Assembly (NCBI GenBank): GCA_022563885.1
Contig: JADFMM010000016.1
Location: forward strand, 1-45,909
Origin: Planctomycetota bacterium
Lineage (GTDB): Bacteria > Planctomycetota > Phycisphaerae > Sedimentisphaerales > Anaerobacaceae
Reading direction: 5' to 3'
DNA length: 45,909 nucleotides
Positions 1 to 31,638 of this stretch are shown piece after piece (positions within the stretch are counted from its first letter, which is position 1; the number at the start of each line of letters is the position of its first letter). The notes under the pieces are model-generated. The model searched no databases, had not been told where the DNA came from, and was given only the letters and a program-made list of their open reading frames with translations. Made by a program: the position numbers and the translations under genes.

Positions 1-451
1 GTGCAGGCAGTTTGACAAATCCTGAGCGCGATCGAATCGCTCAATTTAGGTATAAGCAAGGCCGTTTCAGCAGAACTAGGTCAGGGTAGCCGACGAAAGC
101 GGATGTGGCGGAAACTCCGAACCCCTTTCCCTTTCCATACCAATCGCTATGTTAGTTCATCCGCCCTGCTGAGGCCACCGATGAGCCATGATCTTAATTG
201 GTGTGATGACAGGTCCAAGCTTCCGCTTGCTCATGAAAAACGTAAAACGGGTGAAGGGACGATTGGCGCGCCTTTGAAACGGGTGGCGTTATGACAGTCA
301 GAAACGAGCAGCGCGGTGGCGAAGCTACGAGAACGAGGAAAGTCTTGTTCCATCCAATCCTGGGGGGAAGGCGGCCATTGTGCTCCGCACCTTCGTCCGT
401 TCCTTTGTTCAGTCGGTTCCCAATGCCCTGATGATTCCACCCGACGTGCTG
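1..451. other. Left-edge region without a recognisable gene
   Basis: I see no convincing coding region here. Short open frames exist on both strands, but none has a ribosome binding site together with a recognisable protein sequence, and those that run into the repeat at 452-611 are open only because that repeat is poor in stop codons. The stretch lies beyond the 3' end of the minus-strand sigma/anti-sigma pair. It could be the remains of a gene cut by the window edge, but nothing identifies one. Confidence 0.5.
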
Positions 452-611
452 GGCTCTGTCGGAAAACTCGGTCTGGCTTCGAGCGGCTCTTTTTCCGCCC
501 GGCTGCATCCGGCTGTATCGACGATAAAACCAACATCGCCTGCTTCGCCGTCTTTGCCAGGCGAAAAAACTGCTCGCTCTCGGGCCGACGACGGAGTTTT
601 CCGACAAAGCC
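452..611 (+). repeat. Family-1 palindromic repeat, copy A (MITE-like)
   Basis: This is a 160-bp imperfect palindrome. It begins GGCTCTGTCGGAAAACTC and ends GAGTTTTCCGACAAAGCC, followed by TA. The arms stay roughly complementary almost to the centre near 530. Three relatives lie at 7642, 14063 and 26433. The unit is open in at least three frames. It lies 23 bases beyond the stop codon of the anti-sigma gene, so it could act as a 3' hairpin for that transcript (inference). The left flank is CTG rather than TA, so a clean TA duplication is not visible for this copy. Confidence 0.9.
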
Positions 612-634
612 TAGTGCGCGTCGCAGGGAATCGG

Positions 635-2142: not shown

Positions 2143-3651
2143 ATGAAATCTCTCGTTGCCACCCCTATCCGCAAGTGCCTGATCATCACAGCATCGCTCG
2201 CCGTCGGCGCGGTAGCGCTGGCGTCCAGCCACAGCGACGCCCCGCTGATCAAACAGGATCCGCAGGCGAACCTGACCGACGTGTACGGATTCATCGGGAC
2301 CAAGTACGACGATCCGAGCGTTAAGATGCTCAACGTAGTCGTCAACGTGCGCCCGTTCTCCGAACCCGGCGACGGCCCCCATTACGAGCGTTTCGCGGAC
2401 GACGCGCGCTACAGCATCCACATCACCAACCCGGCCACCGGCGCAAGCGCGATCCGCTACGATTTCTTCTTCTCCGCGGTCGACGGCGCCCCACTGAACC
2501 CGGACACGATCCTCTCCTACGGTCTGGGTACGGAGGCGGGCCCTATCATGCAGATCGGCGACGCGCGACAGAACTTCGTCCAAACCTACTCGGTCGTGCG
2601 CAGTGCCGGTGACTCGAAAGACCTGATCGGAGAGGGTCTACTGGTCGCACCTCCCAACGTGGGCGGCCGGGTCACGCCGCTGTACAACGACGCCGATGGT
2701 CGTGCGGTGTCAGGTGCCGCCGACTTTGCCTCGCTGGACGCGTACACGCAGCAGGCGATCACCGACCTGGCGAACGGTATGGTCGTCTTCGCAGGTCCGC
2801 GTGACGACAGCTTCTTCGGCGACGTGCCCGGCGTGTTTAACCTGCTCGATCCCCGCATCATCGACAACAACGGCGATCCCAATGACGGCCTCGGCCAGGA
2901 CGGCAACGGCGTGGACGGATTCAAAGGGTTCAACGTTTTGACCTTCGCGATTCAGATTCCGGTCGCGGACCTGGAAGCCGCAGGTGTCCCGGCCACCTTC
3001 GAAAACGTGTTCTTCGGCGAGCAGACCGGCGTCGGCGTGTATGCCTCAGTGAGTCGTCCGCAGGTGCGCGAGCTGACGAATGACGGTCGGCGGATCAACA
3101 AGGGCAGCTGGATTCAGATTAACCGCCTCGGCAACCCGCTCTTCAACGAAACACTGGTCGCGTTACGCGACAAGGACCGCTACAACCGCACCTCGCCGAC
3201 CGGGGACGAGTCGTTCGCGACCTGGGCCGAGAACTCGGAGCTCGCGTTCCTGATCAACTTCGTACTCTTCGGCGATGCGACCGGCCAGGCGCCGCTGCAA
3301 ACCACCGGCCGCACGGACCTGGTGAATATCTTCATCCCGGACGTGCTGCGAGTGATTACCACGACGGACCCCGTCCGGCTCGAGGGTGACCCGGACTTCA
3401 ACCGCCTGGGTTTCCTCGGCGGGGATAAGACCAACGGAGTGTCGAGCGGTTGGCCGAACGGCCGGCGCCTCGGCGACGACGTCGTTGATATCGCGCTGAC
3501 GGCGATCGCCAGCGGCCCGACCTATGGGACGATCACGCTCGTCGGCGACAATGTCGAGGAGAATGACGTGCCCTACAACCAGGTGTTCCCTTACGCCGCT
3601 ACCCCGCATTCCGGCTCCTTCAACCGCAAGGACCCGGGTAGGCAGATATGA
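2143..3651 (+). CDS. Secreted DUF4331 domain protein
   Basis: This 502-residue protein has a signal peptide (about 1-27, charged start, then ITASLAVGAVALA) and is probably periplasmic. The mature part begins SSHSDAPLIKQDPQANLTDV, the hallmark start of DUF4331, and continues through the usual VYGFIG and FFSAVDG blocks to a normal family length. The biochemical function of DUF4331 is not known. It starts nine bases after AGGAG. It is divergent from the ECF sigma/anti-sigma pair and is followed by a DUF4198 gene with a family-2 repeat between them. A shared role in stress or metal handling is a context-based guess. Asp-rich stretches such as DNNGDPNDGLGQDGNGVD could bind cations. Confidence 0.88.
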   Translation: MKSLVATPIRKCLIITASLAVGAVALASSHSDAPLIKQDPQANLTDVYGFIGTKYDDPSVKMLNVVVNVRPFSEPGDGPHYERFADDARYSIHITNPATGASAIRYDFFFSAVDGAPLNPDTILSYGLGTEAGPIMQIGDARQNFVQTYSVVRSAGDSKDLIGEGLLVAPPNVGGRVTPLYNDADGRAVSGAADFASLDAYTQQAITDLANGMVVFAGPRDDSFFGDVPGVFNLLDPRIIDNNGDPNDGLGQDGNGVDGFKGFNVLTFAIQIPVADLEAAGVPATFENVFFGEQTGVGVYASVSRPQVRELTNDGRRINKGSWIQINRLGNPLFNETLVALRDKDRYNRTSPTGDESFATWAENSELAFLINFVLFGDATGQAPLQTTGRTDLVNIFIPDVLRVITTTDPVRLEGDPDFNRLGFLGGDKTNGVSSGWPNGRRLGDDVVDIALTAIASGPTYGTITLVGDNVEENDVPYNQVFPYAATPHSGSFNRKDPGRQI

Positions 3652-3760: not shown

Positions 3761-3942
3761 AGGGAACGGCAAGAAATAACTTGGACTTTTGAATGCCCAA
3801 TTGCACCCCATCTTTGATCGCTTCTCAATCGCGACATCCGCGACGTAGAACAGCTACGCCTGGGGTGTCGCTCAATCGGGCGCGACCAAACATGGGGCAC
3901 ACTTGGATCCCAAATTATCCAACTTATTTCTTGCCGATCCCT
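3761..3942. repeat. Family-2 palindromic repeat, copy 1 (MITE-like)
   Basis: This 182-bp imperfect palindrome has 25-base terminal inverted repeats. The left end reads AGGGAACGGCAAGAAATAAC and the reverse complement of the right end reads AGGGATCGGCAAGAAATAAG, with both ends continuing TTGGA. The inner arms also pair (CCCCATCTTTGATCGC against the complement of GCGCGACCAAACATGGGG), so the whole element can fold as one hairpin. A close relative lies at 31455-31638. It occupies much of the gap between the DUF4331 and DUF4198 genes and carries no gene of its own. Confidence 0.92.
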
Positions 3943-7329: not shown

Positions 7330-8060
7330 TCTTTGAATTCAGTGATCATTGATGTGTCTCACCTGCGGACACTCTCAGGACAGAGGCAGGAATGATATCA
7401 GGATCTTGCGAAACCGCAAGTGCCCTGGTCTCCGGATAGTACCTGCATCCCGTCCTTCGTCAATGGGGACCGTGCTACAGGGAAGCTCCCGAGAAAGAGT
7501 GACAGAATTCCTTGAGAATTGGTTGAAAAATAAGCGAGAAAAACCGTTACAGAGTCTGGTTCCTGAGGCCCTATACAATACAAGCGCATAGAGAGCGCGG
7601 GGTTAATCCGGCATCAGCTAAGAACCCGGCGATCTGAACAAGGCTGTGTCAGAAAACTCGATCTGGCTTCGAGCGGCTTGTTTTTCGCCTGGCTGCATCG
7701 ACGAAAAAACGCTCGCTCTCGGGCCGACGACGGAGTGTTCTGACAAAGCCTAGGCAGAAGTAGCTCTTAATTCAATTTCATCAATCAGGCGAACCGGCTG
7801 TCAAGCTGACAAACAGGGAATGACTCAGTGTCCCAATCGTGAGACCCGCGGAGGGACTGTCTTGAAGGGTGTCTGGCATTCGTGGGGGGATCTTTAATTA
7901 GGTTGTCAGCTTGATCAGTCAGGCTCACCTTGTAGGCCGGGCAATGCTTTCCGCAGTGCTCGGCCTATGTTCTGTCCATGGGTTGACAGGCAGGAGGAGA
8001 GGATCGGTCAACCTCCTTCCCGGAGACGGTGTTCCCTAAAGGATCGGCAAGGGGGACGAT
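7330..8060. other. Long intergenic region with a repeat and a stem-loop
   Basis: Apart from the family-1 repeat at 7642-7750 I see no gene. A weak open frame at 7349-7591 has no recognisable product. A stem-loop lies at 7933-7967: TAGGCCGGGCA pairs with TGCTCGGCCTA (10 of 11) around a 13-base loop. It lies about 95 bases beyond the autotransporter stop codon and could end that transcript, but no T-run follows on either strand. Confidence 0.5.
7642..7750 (+). repeat. Family-1 palindromic repeat, copy B (internally deleted)
   Basis: This 109-bp copy keeps both ends, GGCTGTGTCAGAAAACTCG on the left and GTGTTCTGACAAAGCC on the right, followed by TA. It has lost about 50 bases of the centre found in copies A and C. 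It has the same orientation as copy A and sits in open intergenic DNA. End point mutations (TCGG changed to TCAG, and CCGA to CTGA) are complementary, so the terminal pairing is kept. Confidence 0.88.
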
Positions 8061-12939: not shown

Positions 12940-14061
12940 GGTGGCCAGAGCCAGCGTCGCGAAGGCGGCGCCCAGCAGCCAGAAGCGTACGACCACCTGG
13001 GATTCTTGCCAACCCGCCAGGTGGAAGTGATGGTGTAGGGGGGCACACCGGAAGAGGCGCTTGCCACCGGTATACTTGAAGTAGCCAATCTGTAGAACCA
13101 CACTCATCAGCTCCATCACAAAGACTCCACCCAGTATCAGCAGTAGAATCTCGTTTCGCGTGACGAGCGCCCCGTAGCCCATGGCCGCGCCCAGCGGAAG
13201 CGATCCGACATCGCCCATGAATGTCTGTGCGGGGTAGCAGTTGAACCACAAGAATCCCAAGACCGCGCCCAATGTCGCGCCATAGAAAATGCTCAACTCT
13301 CCCGCCTGCGGTATGTGCGGTAGTAGCAGGTAGCTGGCCCAGGTGACCGTGACGCCGCCGGTCATGGACTCCGACGCGACATAACAGAGGATCGTCAAGA
13401 CCATGCTCACCATGGCGACGCAACCCGAGGCCAATCCGTCCATGCCATCGGCCAGATTGACCGCGTTGCTGGTGGCAGTCAGATAGAAGATGCCGATGAA
13501 TACAAAGGGCGGCCATGTGCTCAGGGGGAGCCGGTGCTTGTAGAAGGGCAGCCAAAACGCCTTGCCATCCTCTATTTCCCTAAAATCGACGTAGAGGAAA
13601 GAGGCGATCAGGACGGCGCCGGCGATCTGGAAGAGGAGCTTCTCCCACCAATGCAGCCCGTCCCGGGTCCTTTTCTGGGTACCGGAGGTCAGCTTCAGCC
13701 AGTCGTCAATGCCCCCCAGAATCGCAAACCAAAACACCAAAAAGATGGCCTTTTGTACAAAGGGGTTGTTGAGCTTGGCCCAGAGCAGGGTGGTCACCAC
13801 GGTGGCGAGGATGATGATGAGGCCACCCATGGTCGGGGTATTGGCCTTGTCTTTGGTCAGCTCGTTGAGGGCGGCATGGTGGAACTCCGGACGATCCCCA
13901 ATCTTCTTTCTCATGAGCCAACGGATGATGCGTGGACCTACCAGCAGGGCAATGCAGAGGCTGGTCAGGGTGGCCATGATTGCCCGGAACATCACATAGC
14001 GGTAGGCATAGAAGTGGAAGTTTTCGGCAAACTGGTAGTGTTCTAGCAAATGATACAGCAT
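12925..14061 (-). CDS. mraY: Phospho-N-acetylmuramoyl-pentapeptide transferase MraY
   Basis: This 378-residue integral membrane enzyme transfers phospho-MurNAc-pentapeptide from UDP to undecaprenyl phosphate, making lipid I. About ten membrane helices are visible. Family motifs include DKANTPTMGGL and LADGMDGLASG (Asp-rich nucleotide and Mg sites), and the cytoplasmic HHHFHLAGWQES near the C terminus. The frame is open upstream to 14301, but homology starts at MLYHLLEHYQ, so ATG at 14061 is the start. The DNA before this ATG is entirely family-1 repeat (copy C); no good ribosome binding site is visible in it. It is third in murE-murF-mraY and overlaps the ABM-like gene at its 3' end. Confidence 0.97.
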   Translation of the reverse strand: MLYHLLEHYQFAENFHFYAYRYVMFRAIMATLTSLCIALLVGPRIIRWLMRKKIGDRPEFHHAALNELTKDKANTPTMGGLIIILATVVTTLLWAKLNNPFVQKAIFLVFWFAILGGIDDWLKLTSGTQKRTRDGLHWWEKLLFQIAGAVLIASFLYVDFREIEDGKAFWLPFYKHRLPLSTWPPFVFIGIFYLTATSNAVNLADGMDGLASGCVAMVSMVLTILCYVASESMTGGVTVTWASYLLLPHIPQAGELSIFYGATLGAVLGFLWFNCYPAQTFMGDVGSLPLGAAMGYGALVTRNEILLLILGGVFVMELMSVVLQIGYFKYTGGKRLFRCAPLHHHFHLAGWQESQVVVRFWLLGAAFATLALATLKLR

Positions 14062-14062
14062 A

Positions 14063-14222
14063 GGCTTTGTCGGAAAACTTGCTCGTCGGCCCGAGAGCGA
14101 GCAGTTTTTTCGCCTGGCAAAGACGGCGAAGCAGGCGATATTGGTTTCATCGTTGATACAGCCGGATGCAGCCAGGCGGAAAAAGGGCCGCTCGAAGCCA
14201 GATCGAGTTTTCCGACACAGCC
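14063..14222 (-). repeat. Family-1 palindromic repeat, copy C, at the murF-mraY junction
   Basis: This 160-bp copy is inverted relative to copy A. It is flanked by TA on both sides (14061-14062 and 14223-14224), as expected for an element that duplicates a TA target, the habit of IS630/Tc1-mariner transposons and their MITEs. It fills almost the whole 166 bases between murF and mraY. On the minus strand the A of the mraY ATG is the second base of the flanking TA. The mraY frame runs through the element without a stop, giving CRKTRSGFERPFF and later peptides nearly identical to those encoded by copy A. Confidence 0.95.
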
Positions 14223-14227
14223 TAGTT

Positions 14228-15622
14228 CTACGCGCTGCCAACCATCTCTTTGAGCGTCTCCACGGCCTTTTCCAGGCCCACCGATCTTGATCCTTTGACA
14301 AGAACGACGTCGTGGTCCTGGATCAAGCTCGTCAGACTCTGGCATGCCGAAATGGTATCCTCAAAGTAAGCGATCTGCAACTCTTTCGCATGAAGGGAAT
14401 TGGCAGTTTGGGCAGTGAACATGGCCAGCGGACCGATGGCAATGAGCAGGTCTACCTCCGCTTCTGCAACGCATTGGCCAAGTGCTTCGTGTAGGGACTG
14501 ACTGTCTGTACCGAGTTCCGCCATCTCGCCGAAGATGCACACGCGACGACCGGTGTTGCCAACCCTGTGCGCCCCGAGAATGCTCAGTGCGTTCTCCATC
14601 GAAGCGGGACTGGCATTGTAGCAGTCATTGATGACCGTGAGAGAGCCAAGCGAAAGCACGTCGGCCCGCATGGGTGGTGGGCCCAGGGTATTGACGGCGG
14701 CCGCGAAGGAATCCCACTCGACCCCGACCCAGGAACAGACGGCCCATGCTGCCAGCGCATTGGCGATGTTGCCCGGCCCGGCCAGAGGCAGCCGGATTGG
14801 CTTGCCTTGGACAAGAAAGGTGCTGTGGTCGGCGCTGAGTTTAACTTGGTCGGCGCGAATCTCTGCGGCGGGAGAGGTGCCGAAGGTGGTCGCAGCCAGA
14901 GCATGCTCACGACAATGATCCCTGATGGCTTGATCGTCGCCATTGACGATCAAGCGACCCTCGGACCGGAGGCCCTCCACGATGGACATTTTTTCCCGCA
15001 GAATGGATTCGATGTCACCAAGGCCCTCTAAGTGTGCAGGGAATACGTTTGTGACCACGGCAATGTCTGGCTGGGCGATATGGGAAAGATACGATATTTC
15101 TCCCGGTGCGCTGCTTCCCAGTTCCACGACGACCACCTCATCGTGGGGCCGGGCGCCCAACAGGCTGAGCGGTAGACCTATGTGGTTGTTGAAGTTCCGA
15201 GGGGACTGATGCACGCTAAACCGATCGGCCAGAACGTGTGCGATGATGTGTCGCGTAGAGGTCTTGCCCACTGAGCCCGTGATCGCGATGACGCGAAAGT
15301 CAGCCTCCAGCCGAAAATGCCGTGCTAACGTTCCCAAGGCAGTGGTTGTGTTCGGAACCTGCACGAGCGCTTGGCCTGACTTGTCCTTGATGTTGCACGC
15401 AGTATCGACCAAGGCGCAGCATGCGCCCCGGGCGAAGGCCTGTTCTACATGGTCGTGGCCGTCAAAACGATCACCTTTGAGGGCGACGAAGCACTCGCCG
15501 CGTCTGAGCGTACGAGAATCGGTGCTGATACCGCTACAGATGAGAGAGGAGGACGTGTCACGTGGAGGAACGATGGTAGCTTGTAATAGGTTGGCTAAGT
15601 CTTGTAGCGATAAGGAATTCAT
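14228..15622 (-). CDS. murF: UDP-MurNAc-tripeptide:D-Ala-D-Ala ligase MurF
   Basis: This 464-residue cytoplasmic Mur ligase adds D-Ala-D-Ala to UDP-MurNAc-tripeptide with ATP. The N-terminal substrate domain shows STDSRTLRRGECFVALKG; the central domain has the P-loop GSVGKTS (about 116-122) and SPRNFNNHIGLPLSL; the C-terminal domain has VINDCYNASPASM and ends LVKGSRSVGLEKAVE. Length is normal. It overlaps the murE stop codon by ATGA, so the two are translationally coupled. Its stop codon lies just beyond the family-1 repeat. Confidence 0.97.
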   Translation of the reverse strand: MNSLSLQDLANLLQATIVPPRDTSSSLICSGISTDSRTLRRGECFVALKGDRFDGHDHVEQAFARGACCALVDTACNIKDKSGQALVQVPNTTTALGTLARHFRLEADFRVIAITGSVGKTSTRHIIAHVLADRFSVHQSPRNFNNHIGLPLSLLGARPHDEVVVVELGSSAPGEISYLSHIAQPDIAVVTNVFPAHLEGLGDIESILREKMSIVEGLRSEGRLIVNGDDQAIRDHCREHALAATTFGTSPAAEIRADQVKLSADHSTFLVQGKPIRLPLAGPGNIANALAAWAVCSWVGVEWDSFAAAVNTLGPPPMRADVLSLGSLTVINDCYNASPASMENALSILGAHRVGNTGRRVCIFGEMAELGTDSQSLHEALGQCVAEAEVDLLIAIGPLAMFTAQTANSLHAKELQIAYFEDTISACQSLTSLIQDHDVVLVKGSRSVGLEKAVETLKEMVGSA

Positions 15623-25521: not shown

Positions 25522-26643
25522 ATGGAAGCTAGCCCATTAAAAGTTGCCGTTCTGATGGGGGGGCCGGGCAGCGAACGAGAGATCAGTGTTCAAAGCGGTG
25601 GCGCCGTGCTCAAGGCACTCTCCGAGGCAGGTATCGATCATGTCGCCTGGGATGTCCAACCAGACGCGCTGCAATTCCTGGAAGATCCGTCGATTACCCT
25701 CTTCTTCATCGCCTTGCATGGAGAATTTGGTGAAGATGGTCAACTCCAGCGCATCTTGGAAAAGCGGGGTCTGCTCTACACGGGCAGCGGTCCCGACGCC
25801 AGTGAGCTGGCCTTCGACAAGTTGGCCAGCAAACGTGTCTTCGAACGGCAGGGGGTCCCCTGCCCCCGGGCTATTGAGTTCACCGAAGGGCTGGATGCGA
25901 CTGGGCTCCAGATCCAGCTTCAGCCCTTCGAGGACAAAATCGTCGTCAAGCCGCCGCGCGGGGGCAGCAGCCTCGGCGTACAGATCGTGGCCCGCGATGT
26001 CGATCTCTGGAACCTCTGTCGGCGAACCCTCGCAGACTACGGCAGTTGCATGGTCGAGCAGTTTATTGCTGGCAGAGAACTCACCGTCAGTATCTTGGAT
26101 GAGTGTGCCCTGCCCGTCATCGAAGTCCAACCGGCCCGTCCCTTCTATGACTACCATGCCAAGTATGTCGACGACGGCACCCGCTATCTCTTCGACACCT
26201 TGAGTGAGGCAGAGTCGCATGCCTTACAGCAGCAGGCCCTACGCTGTTTTGAAGGCCTGGGTCTGCGGCACTTCGGTCGCATCGACTTCATCCTCTCTCC
26301 CGAAGGCGTCGCCTATTGCCTCGAGGCAAACAGTATTCCCGGATTGACTTCCCATTCACTCCTACCCAAGGCCGCACAAAAAGCAGGTCACTCCATGAGT
26401 GATATCTGCTGCTCCATCGTGGATGCGGCTACGCGCTGTCTGAAAACTCCGTCGTCGGCCCGAGAACGAGCAGTTTATTCGCCTGGCAAAAACGGCAAAG
26501 CAGGCGATATTGGTAGTATCGTCGATGGAGGCGGATGCAACCAGGCGGCAACAGGGCCGCTCGTCTTCGACCCTGAGGCTCAGACCCGAAGGGAAGCCAG
26601 ATCGAGTTCCCAGAAAGCGCCTGGGTGCGAACCCACACCGTGA
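25522..26643 (+). CDS. ddl: D-alanine:D-alanine ligase Ddl with repeat-encoded C-terminal tail
   Basis: This ATP-grasp enzyme joins two D-Ala for the stem peptide. Residues 1-305 match Ddl: MGGPGSEREISVQSG (12-26), HGEFGEDGQLQ (66-76), PPRGGSSLGV, and the Mg and substrate segment EANSIPGLTSHSLLPKAA (268-285). The family normally ends near SIVDAA (299-303). From residue 304 on, about 70 residues (RCLKTPSSARERAV onward) come from family-1 repeat copy D, read in frame until a TGA just beyond it. Total length is 373. The tail is low in hydrophobic residues and probably disordered. The gene sits 27 bases after murB, with no strong ribosome binding site. Confidence 0.95.
   Translation: MEASPLKVAVLMGGPGSEREISVQSGGAVLKALSEAGIDHVAWDVQPDALQFLEDPSITLFFIALHGEFGEDGQLQRILEKRGLLYTGSGPDASELAFDKLASKRVFERQGVPCPRAIEFTEGLDATGLQIQLQPFEDKIVVKPPRGGSSLGVQIVARDVDLWNLCRRTLADYGSCMVEQFIAGRELTVSILDECALPVIEVQPARPFYDYHAKYVDDGTRYLFDTLSEAESHALQQQALRCFEGLGLRHFGRIDFILSPEGVAYCLEANSIPGLTSHSLLPKAAQKAGHSMSDICCSIVDAATRCLKTPSSARERAVYSPGKNGKAGDIGSIVDGGGCNQAATGPLVFDPEAQTRREARSSSQKAPGCEPTP
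26433..26621 (-). repeat. Family-1 palindromic repeat, copy D, inside the ddl coding region
   Basis: This is the most diverged and longest copy (about 189 bp). It has the same orientation as copy C: GCTGTCTGAAAACTCCGTC at the left, GATCGAGTTCCCAGAAAGCG at the right. The centre CAGGCGATATTGGTAGTATC matches copy C closely. About 30 bases (roughly 26565-26595) are inserted relative to the other copies. It supplies the C-terminal extension of Ddl without a stop codon and ends about 45 bases before ftsQ. Exact ends are uncertain by a few bases. Confidence 0.88.
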
Positions 26644-31455: not shown

Positions 31456-31638
31456 GGGACCGGCAAGAAATAACTTGGACTTTTGAATGCCCAATTGCAC
31501 CCCATCTTTGATCGCTTCTCAATCGCGAAATCCGCGACGTAGTAGAAAGCTACGCCTGTGGTTTCGCTCAATCGGGCGCGACCCAATATGGGGCACACTT
31601 GGACCCCAAATTGTCCAACTAATTTATTGCCGATCCCC
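31455..31638. repeat. Family-2 palindromic repeat, copy 2 (MITE-like)
   Basis: This 184-bp copy is nearly identical to the copy at 3761-3942 for its first 70 bases and very similar throughout. Left end GGGGACCGGCAAGAAATAAC; the right end is the inverted form with two changes (ATTTATTGCCGATCCCC). It starts at the last base of the DUF1552 stop codon and ends 16 bases before the ankyrin start. The whole spacer between the two genes is therefore element plus the ankyrin ribosome binding site. Confidence 0.92.

Follow-up and report, generated by a model that had tools for sequence, protein, structure and literature searches.

The window analysed here, a 45,909-nt stretch of planctomycete DNA, is one contig (C243) from a draft genome (G000) that totals 6.5 Mb in 470 contigs. 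It carries part of a cell-wall gene cluster in which the order murC, murB, ddl and an ftsQ-like ORF can be read, murC being named by sequence inspection and the ftsQ-like ORF by position only, without a family match. The ddl frame extends over 373 aa without an internal stop, and close to its 3' end it contains a copy of a palindromic repeat. The features of the gene and of its insert are as follows.

25522-26643, plus strand: ddl, D-alanine--D-alanine ligase ORF, 373 aa, inserted element and stop codon included
26430-26621, plus strand: in-frame MITE insertion, TA plus 190-nt element, with boundaries set by the TA/GGC..GCC/TA pattern of 65 bounded copies
26430-26431, plus strand: left target-site TA, in GGC-TA-C, the target probably having been CTAG
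26432-26449, plus strand: left terminal inverted repeat, decayed, CGCGCTGTCTGAAAACTC (consensus GGCTCTGTCTGAAAACTC)
26563-26592, plus strand: 30-nt module of the 192-nt type, a multiple of three, also present in the G000:C395, C65 and C429 copies
26604-26621, plus strand: right terminal inverted repeat, decayed, GAGTTCCCAGAAAGCGCC (consensus GAGTTTTCMGACASAGCC)
26622-26623, plus strand: right copy of the target site, in which TA has become TG
26622-26643, plus strand: native 3' end of ddl, kept (..GCEPTP), with TGA at 26641-26643

The predicted 373-aa product is a full-length ATP-grasp ligase of the Ddl family. It scores 296 bits against NF002378 (cut-off 243), with model positions 6-302 of 305 covered, it also matches PF07478 and PF01820, and alignment with its relatives shows that the residues invariant among them are retained. 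The homology ends before the ORF does: the Pfam Dala_Dala_lig_C match stops at residue 300, the NCBIfam PRK01372 match at residue 304, and the alignment with E. coli DdlB (1iov) at residue 303 of 373, corresponding to 305/306 of the 1iov chain. This agrees with a first-pass annotation of the stretch, which had placed the end of the Ddl homology near residue 303.

The repeat together with one copy of the TA occupies 26430-26621, that is, 2 + 190 nt, or 192 nt and 64 codons. The element part closes with GCC at 26619-26621, and the TGA at 26641 lies 20 nt past the repeat, after the native codons ..GCEPTP. When the insert is removed, the protein ends in ..SIVDAARCEPTP or in ..DAAGCEPTP, according to the TA copy that is left in place, and in both cases the same TGA closes a product of 309 aa. 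As read from these boundaries, the ddl insertion is in frame and shortly before the native stop, and is not a fusion beyond that stop. The first-pass annotation had described a 70-residue C-terminal tail encoded by the repeat and ending at a TGA just outside it; the repeat origin and the external TGA stand, and the tail itself is now seen as a 64-codon insert followed by native codons and the native stop. It includes the peptides AVYSPGK and AGDIGSIVDGGGCNQAATGPLVFDPEAQTR, and the predicted 64 extra residues most likely sit outside the folded enzyme. The ddl repeat is recovered by a profile search of the family (nhmmer E 2.4e-49), and it is 84-86% identical to the other window copies over 134-135 nt. 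Against the G000:C395 copy of the same 192-nt type, all its 192 nt align ungapped, at 85% identity, and by length-normalised hairpin folding energy it is the most decayed of the bounded copies examined.

None of the Ddl proteins from 27 other genomes, among them one congener (G002), carries such a tail. They end at about 304-332 aa, several of them at 309, so that the predicted pre-insertion length is a common one among relatives. In the nearest congener (G001), Ddl is 95% identical but is broken off by the contig edge at residue 244, and neither the 3' end of ddl nor ftsQ was found in that assembly. The empty ddl site is thus one that we infer, unlike the empty sites seen in other genes. Relatives ending near residue 305-310 without the repeat are what the first-pass annotation had predicted, and its check for a frame error is also satisfied, as none is seen in 192 nt that align ungapped with the nearest sister copy. 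Since the relatives are tail-less and no frame error was seen, neither of the two outcomes named as fatal to that annotation (a similar tail in all relatives without the repeat DNA, or a stop at residue 305 hidden by a frame error) was encountered.

The repeat belongs to a large family, of which the window holds three further members, all recognised by sequence match.

449-613, minus strand: family copy
7642-7753, minus strand: family copy, internally deleted
14061-14225, plus strand: family copy between murF and a mraY-like gene, in the cell-wall gene cluster

A copy is also found in the sister genome at what appears to be the same murF-mraY place (L064). A search of this genome for a 26-nt motif, with up to 3 mismatches allowed, finds at least 119 copies, against 0 for the reversed control. 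Copies were sampled through searches and sequence stretches, and the statistics on size and edges come from 65 copies with both ends recognised. In 45 of these, TA plus element measures 162 nt (54 codons); the length is divisible by three in 51 of the 65, and not in the other 14. Variant modules of 30 nt (ddl), 54 nt (an NRPS-like gene and C429) and 24 nt (C65) are all multiples of three. The consensus, 164 nt long with both TAs, is bounded by the terminal inverted repeats GGCTYTGTCNGAAAACTC and GAGTTTTCNGACANAGCC and folds into a single extended hairpin (-91.9 kcal/mol, z -8.5). The edge TA is preserved on the left in 48/65 and on the right in 33/65 bounded copies, and the bases just outside are C on the left (48/65) and G or A on the right (58/65), which gives a CTAR target. 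Copies at least 90% identical are present in the genus itself and also in a second genus of the family; matches to the element, weaker relatives included, occur in 34 of the 161 genomes of the order. The family is therefore a MITE family by its short and multicopy nature without a transposase of its own, by its terminal inverted repeats, and by its TA duplication and empty sites. No Rfam match was found in the window. The window also contains two copies of another palindromic repeat, about 180 nt long and unrelated to the first, at 3762-3941 and 31456-31637, which share blocks of 98% and 91% identity and have ends resembling GGGAMCGGCAAGAAAT.. and ..TTTATTTCTTGCCGATCCC.

The insertion in ddl is not an isolated one. 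In-frame copies were found in ddl, in genes for a TMEM260-like membrane protein, an NRPS-like enzyme, DNA polymerase III delta', TrkH and a HAD phosphatase, in a 722-aa ORF, and in a secreted protein encoded on C395. An automatic two-flank coding test did not separate disrupted genes from neighbours within one operon, and we therefore give no rate of gene disruption. Clean empty sites between the sister species were obtained three times, for the TMEM260-like protein, delta' and TrkH. The TMEM260-like protein (G000:C54) has gained 54 residues, its G001 ortholog is uninterrupted, and the DNA flanks are 96% identical, the junction reading GGCC-TA-[element]-TA-GTCATC in G000 and GGTCCAGTCATC in G001. 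Conversely, delta' and TrkH carry inserts in G001 and none in G000. Two other inserts are common to both species. That of the NRPS-like enzyme, of about 72-74 codons, has a dN/dS of 0.53, the flanks having 0.31 and 0.67. That of the 722-aa ORF (G000:C190:4073-4240, L224; G001:C613:2060-2227, L225) shows 0 nucleotide differences over 153 nt, in flanks that differ at 1.7-3.6% of sites, and it is possible that this sequence identity reflects constraint on an old insert. In the C395 secreted protein, inspection places an insert of the 192-nt type in frame directly after the signal peptide, and the G002 ortholog is without it; in the HAD phosphatase the in-frame element is in the tail. Many copies are found at the very start of genes for exported proteins (L067, L071, L204, L208, L131, L008, L148/L073); they fall ahead of the signal peptide or immediately behind it, and no stop interrupts the frame across them. 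For several of these proteins the real start codon could be located 3' of the element. The first-pass annotation had regarded a mobile palindrome adding a tail to an essential enzyme as an oddity; the in-frame insertion in ddl is confirmed, and the oddity disappears in a family that enters many proteins.

How the element avoids breaking frames can be followed in the 51 copies of whole-codon length. Stop-free copies number 43 in frame +1 (the frame read in ddl), 49 in frame -1, 28 in frame +2 and 25 in frame -2, and in either orientation the third frame usually runs straight into a TAG, since G follows TA. Compared with a Markov model, the poverty of the consensus in stop codons has a P of 0.08-0.17, and that of the GTCGG variant a P of 0.02-0.03. 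Given its base composition, the consensus exceeds the openness expected by chance only weakly, and we therefore do not claim that selection for open frames is proven. A different relation to stop codons is seen at the edges. Gene stops fall exactly at the element TA in 10 of the 62 cases within range of an edge, and at any other offset in 2 at most. As the element ends in TA/GG, a TAA or TAG stop that is hit by insertion is replaced by a recreated TAG. One of the ten is a gene with an acetolactate synthase-like C-terminus (L142, G000:C392; copy 3414-3586), with its TAG at the element edge. The window copy at 14061-14225 was considered as a rebuilder of the murF stop and rejected, the murF stop at 14228-14230 being 3 nt outside the TA.

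The TA duplication and the CTAG preference are those of an IS630-derived MITE. When the DDE_3 (IS630) family was searched in G000 and its relatives, no transposase sharing the ends of the element turned up. A single DDE_3 remnant is present in G000, and the IS630-like ORFs of relatives, at the nine DDE_3 loci inspected, lack the terminal repeats of the element, so that no ends shared with an IS630 transposon of the host lineage were found there.

We consider it very probable that the ddl tail is an old in-frame copy of a TA-targeted, non-autonomous hairpin MITE, tolerated as a passenger. A frame error or a misassembly at the repeat could produce the same picture, with the real gene ending near residue 305, since a 470-contig draft is the kind of assembly that repeats often break or chimerise, and the contig of the sister genome does break within ddl. 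However, none of the bounded copies examined is more decayed in hairpin energy than that of ddl, and its best match elsewhere reaches only 85%; being unlike any other, it should not have been collapsed with other copies. The ungapped alignment with the C395 copy argues against a frame error, removing the insert restores a length that is common in relatives, and in other genes the comparison of the sister species reveals insertions of this type. Such an artefact is thus very unlikely. Just as unlikely is an insertion that inactivated or weakened ddl, so that the gene is now in decay or a second ligase stands in for it. Harm would be the expected outcome when an essential gene is hit, but here the ORF covers nearly the whole Ddl family model and keeps the invariant residues, the element begins only once the conserved fold is complete, and no second full-length ddl is present among the matches listed from the genome search.

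Co-option of the tail, as a peptide that would serve Ddl in localisation, partner binding or regulation and be kept by selection, is improbable, if less so. It would fit with an open frame in a copy that is 11% diverged from its inferred ancestor, and with the old insert of the 722-aa ORF, unchanged beside diverging flanks. Against it, the 21 substitutions that separate the ddl copy from that ancestor are spread as 6, 12 and 3 over codon positions 1, 2 and 3, and they change the residue in 16 codons and leave it unchanged in 3. In addition, 74% of neutral simulations leave the frame of the ddl copy open. The persistence of the frame despite divergence, to which the first-pass annotation had drawn attention, is therefore real but unremarkable on its own, and neither the substitution pattern nor the neutral simulation gives a sign of purifying selection on the ddl tail. 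From the coding pattern, a tolerated passenger beyond the enzyme fold is most likely what the tail represents. A broader proposal can be made for the element as a whole, namely that it has been selected for gene safety through its whole-codon unit and modules, mostly stop-free strands and stop-rebuilding edges, which would allow cheap spread in coding DNA, and that some inserts, for example that of the 722-aa ORF, are functional. This we hold to be possible, but rather doubtful.

With the passenger reading, a course of events can be proposed from the anatomy, in-frame insertions, empty sites and stop-codon peak that are directly observed. Mobilised in trans by a TA-targeting (IS630/Tc1-like) transposase, the element would have entered a CTAG six codons ahead of the native ddl stop, in frame. 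The tail would then be translated as 64 extra residues outside the enzyme fold, presumably with a near-neutral effect on Ddl. Gene-breaking copies would be purged by selection, and the surviving ones would be found between genes, on stop codons, in N- or C-terminal extensions and presumably in tolerant loops. Insertions would be tolerated because of the way the element is built: the 162-nt unit and the modules of 24, 30 or 54 nt keep the frame of the host gene, the scarcity of stops in either orientation allows a gene to read through, and the ends recreate stops. An insertion can often be read as coding sequence or gives a stop codon back to the gene, and in this way the element can spread without breaking genes.

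In this respect the element would act like a planctomycete counterpart of the Rickettsia palindromic elements (RPE). The RPE and Wolbachia palindromic elements are short hairpin palindromes that occur between genes and in frame within unrelated, often conserved genes (PMC2229807, PMC10969869, PMC3767692), and in Rickettsia gmk the insert-bearing protein is translated and active, with a changed substrate affinity (reviewed in PMC2229807). The likeness, a long-hairpin palindrome both between genes and in frame within conserved genes, is one of behaviour. Unlike the RPE, the planctomycete element comes from another phylum, is built as a unit of 162 or 192 nt that is bordered by TA on either side and is seen to duplicate this TA, is readable in both orientations and in up to four frames, lands exactly on stops, and has recent insertions that are seen as empty sites between sister species. 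ERIC/RU-1, YPAL/RU-2 and the 107-bp form of the Correia element are likewise hairpins of 100-200 bp with mostly TA termini, and their ORFs are fused in frame to genes (PMC2229807). Compared by description, these enterobacterial and Neisseria MITEs share the hairpin, the TA termini and the in-frame fusions, but they are described as primarily intergenic, whereas the planctomycete element, in an unrelated phylum, is in frame in core enzymes and has stop-restoring ends. IS630/Tc1-mariner transposons target TA and duplicate it (PMC2170065), and a preference of IS630 for TA within CTAG is attributed there to Tenzen and Ohtsubo (1991). The element shares the TA duplication and the CTAG preference with them and with their derived MITEs; in contrast to them, no transposase with its ends was found in the DDE_3 search of G000 and relatives, and the family that mobilises it is one that we infer. 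A literature search of incomplete coverage found no papers on such elements in Planctomycetota.

Rickettsia and Wolbachia, with their reduced intracellular genomes, are the best-known hosts of in-frame coding palindromes, and further cases are reported from enterobacteria and Neisseria. The same behaviour is now found in a lineage of Planctomycetota with 6-Mb genomes and in core proteins that include D-Ala-D-Ala ligase and DNA polymerase III delta'. The insertion differences between sister species make the cost of about 54 added residues directly testable in many proteins. Finally, the stop-restoring ends suggest a simple route by which a mobile element may survive in gene-dense genomes.
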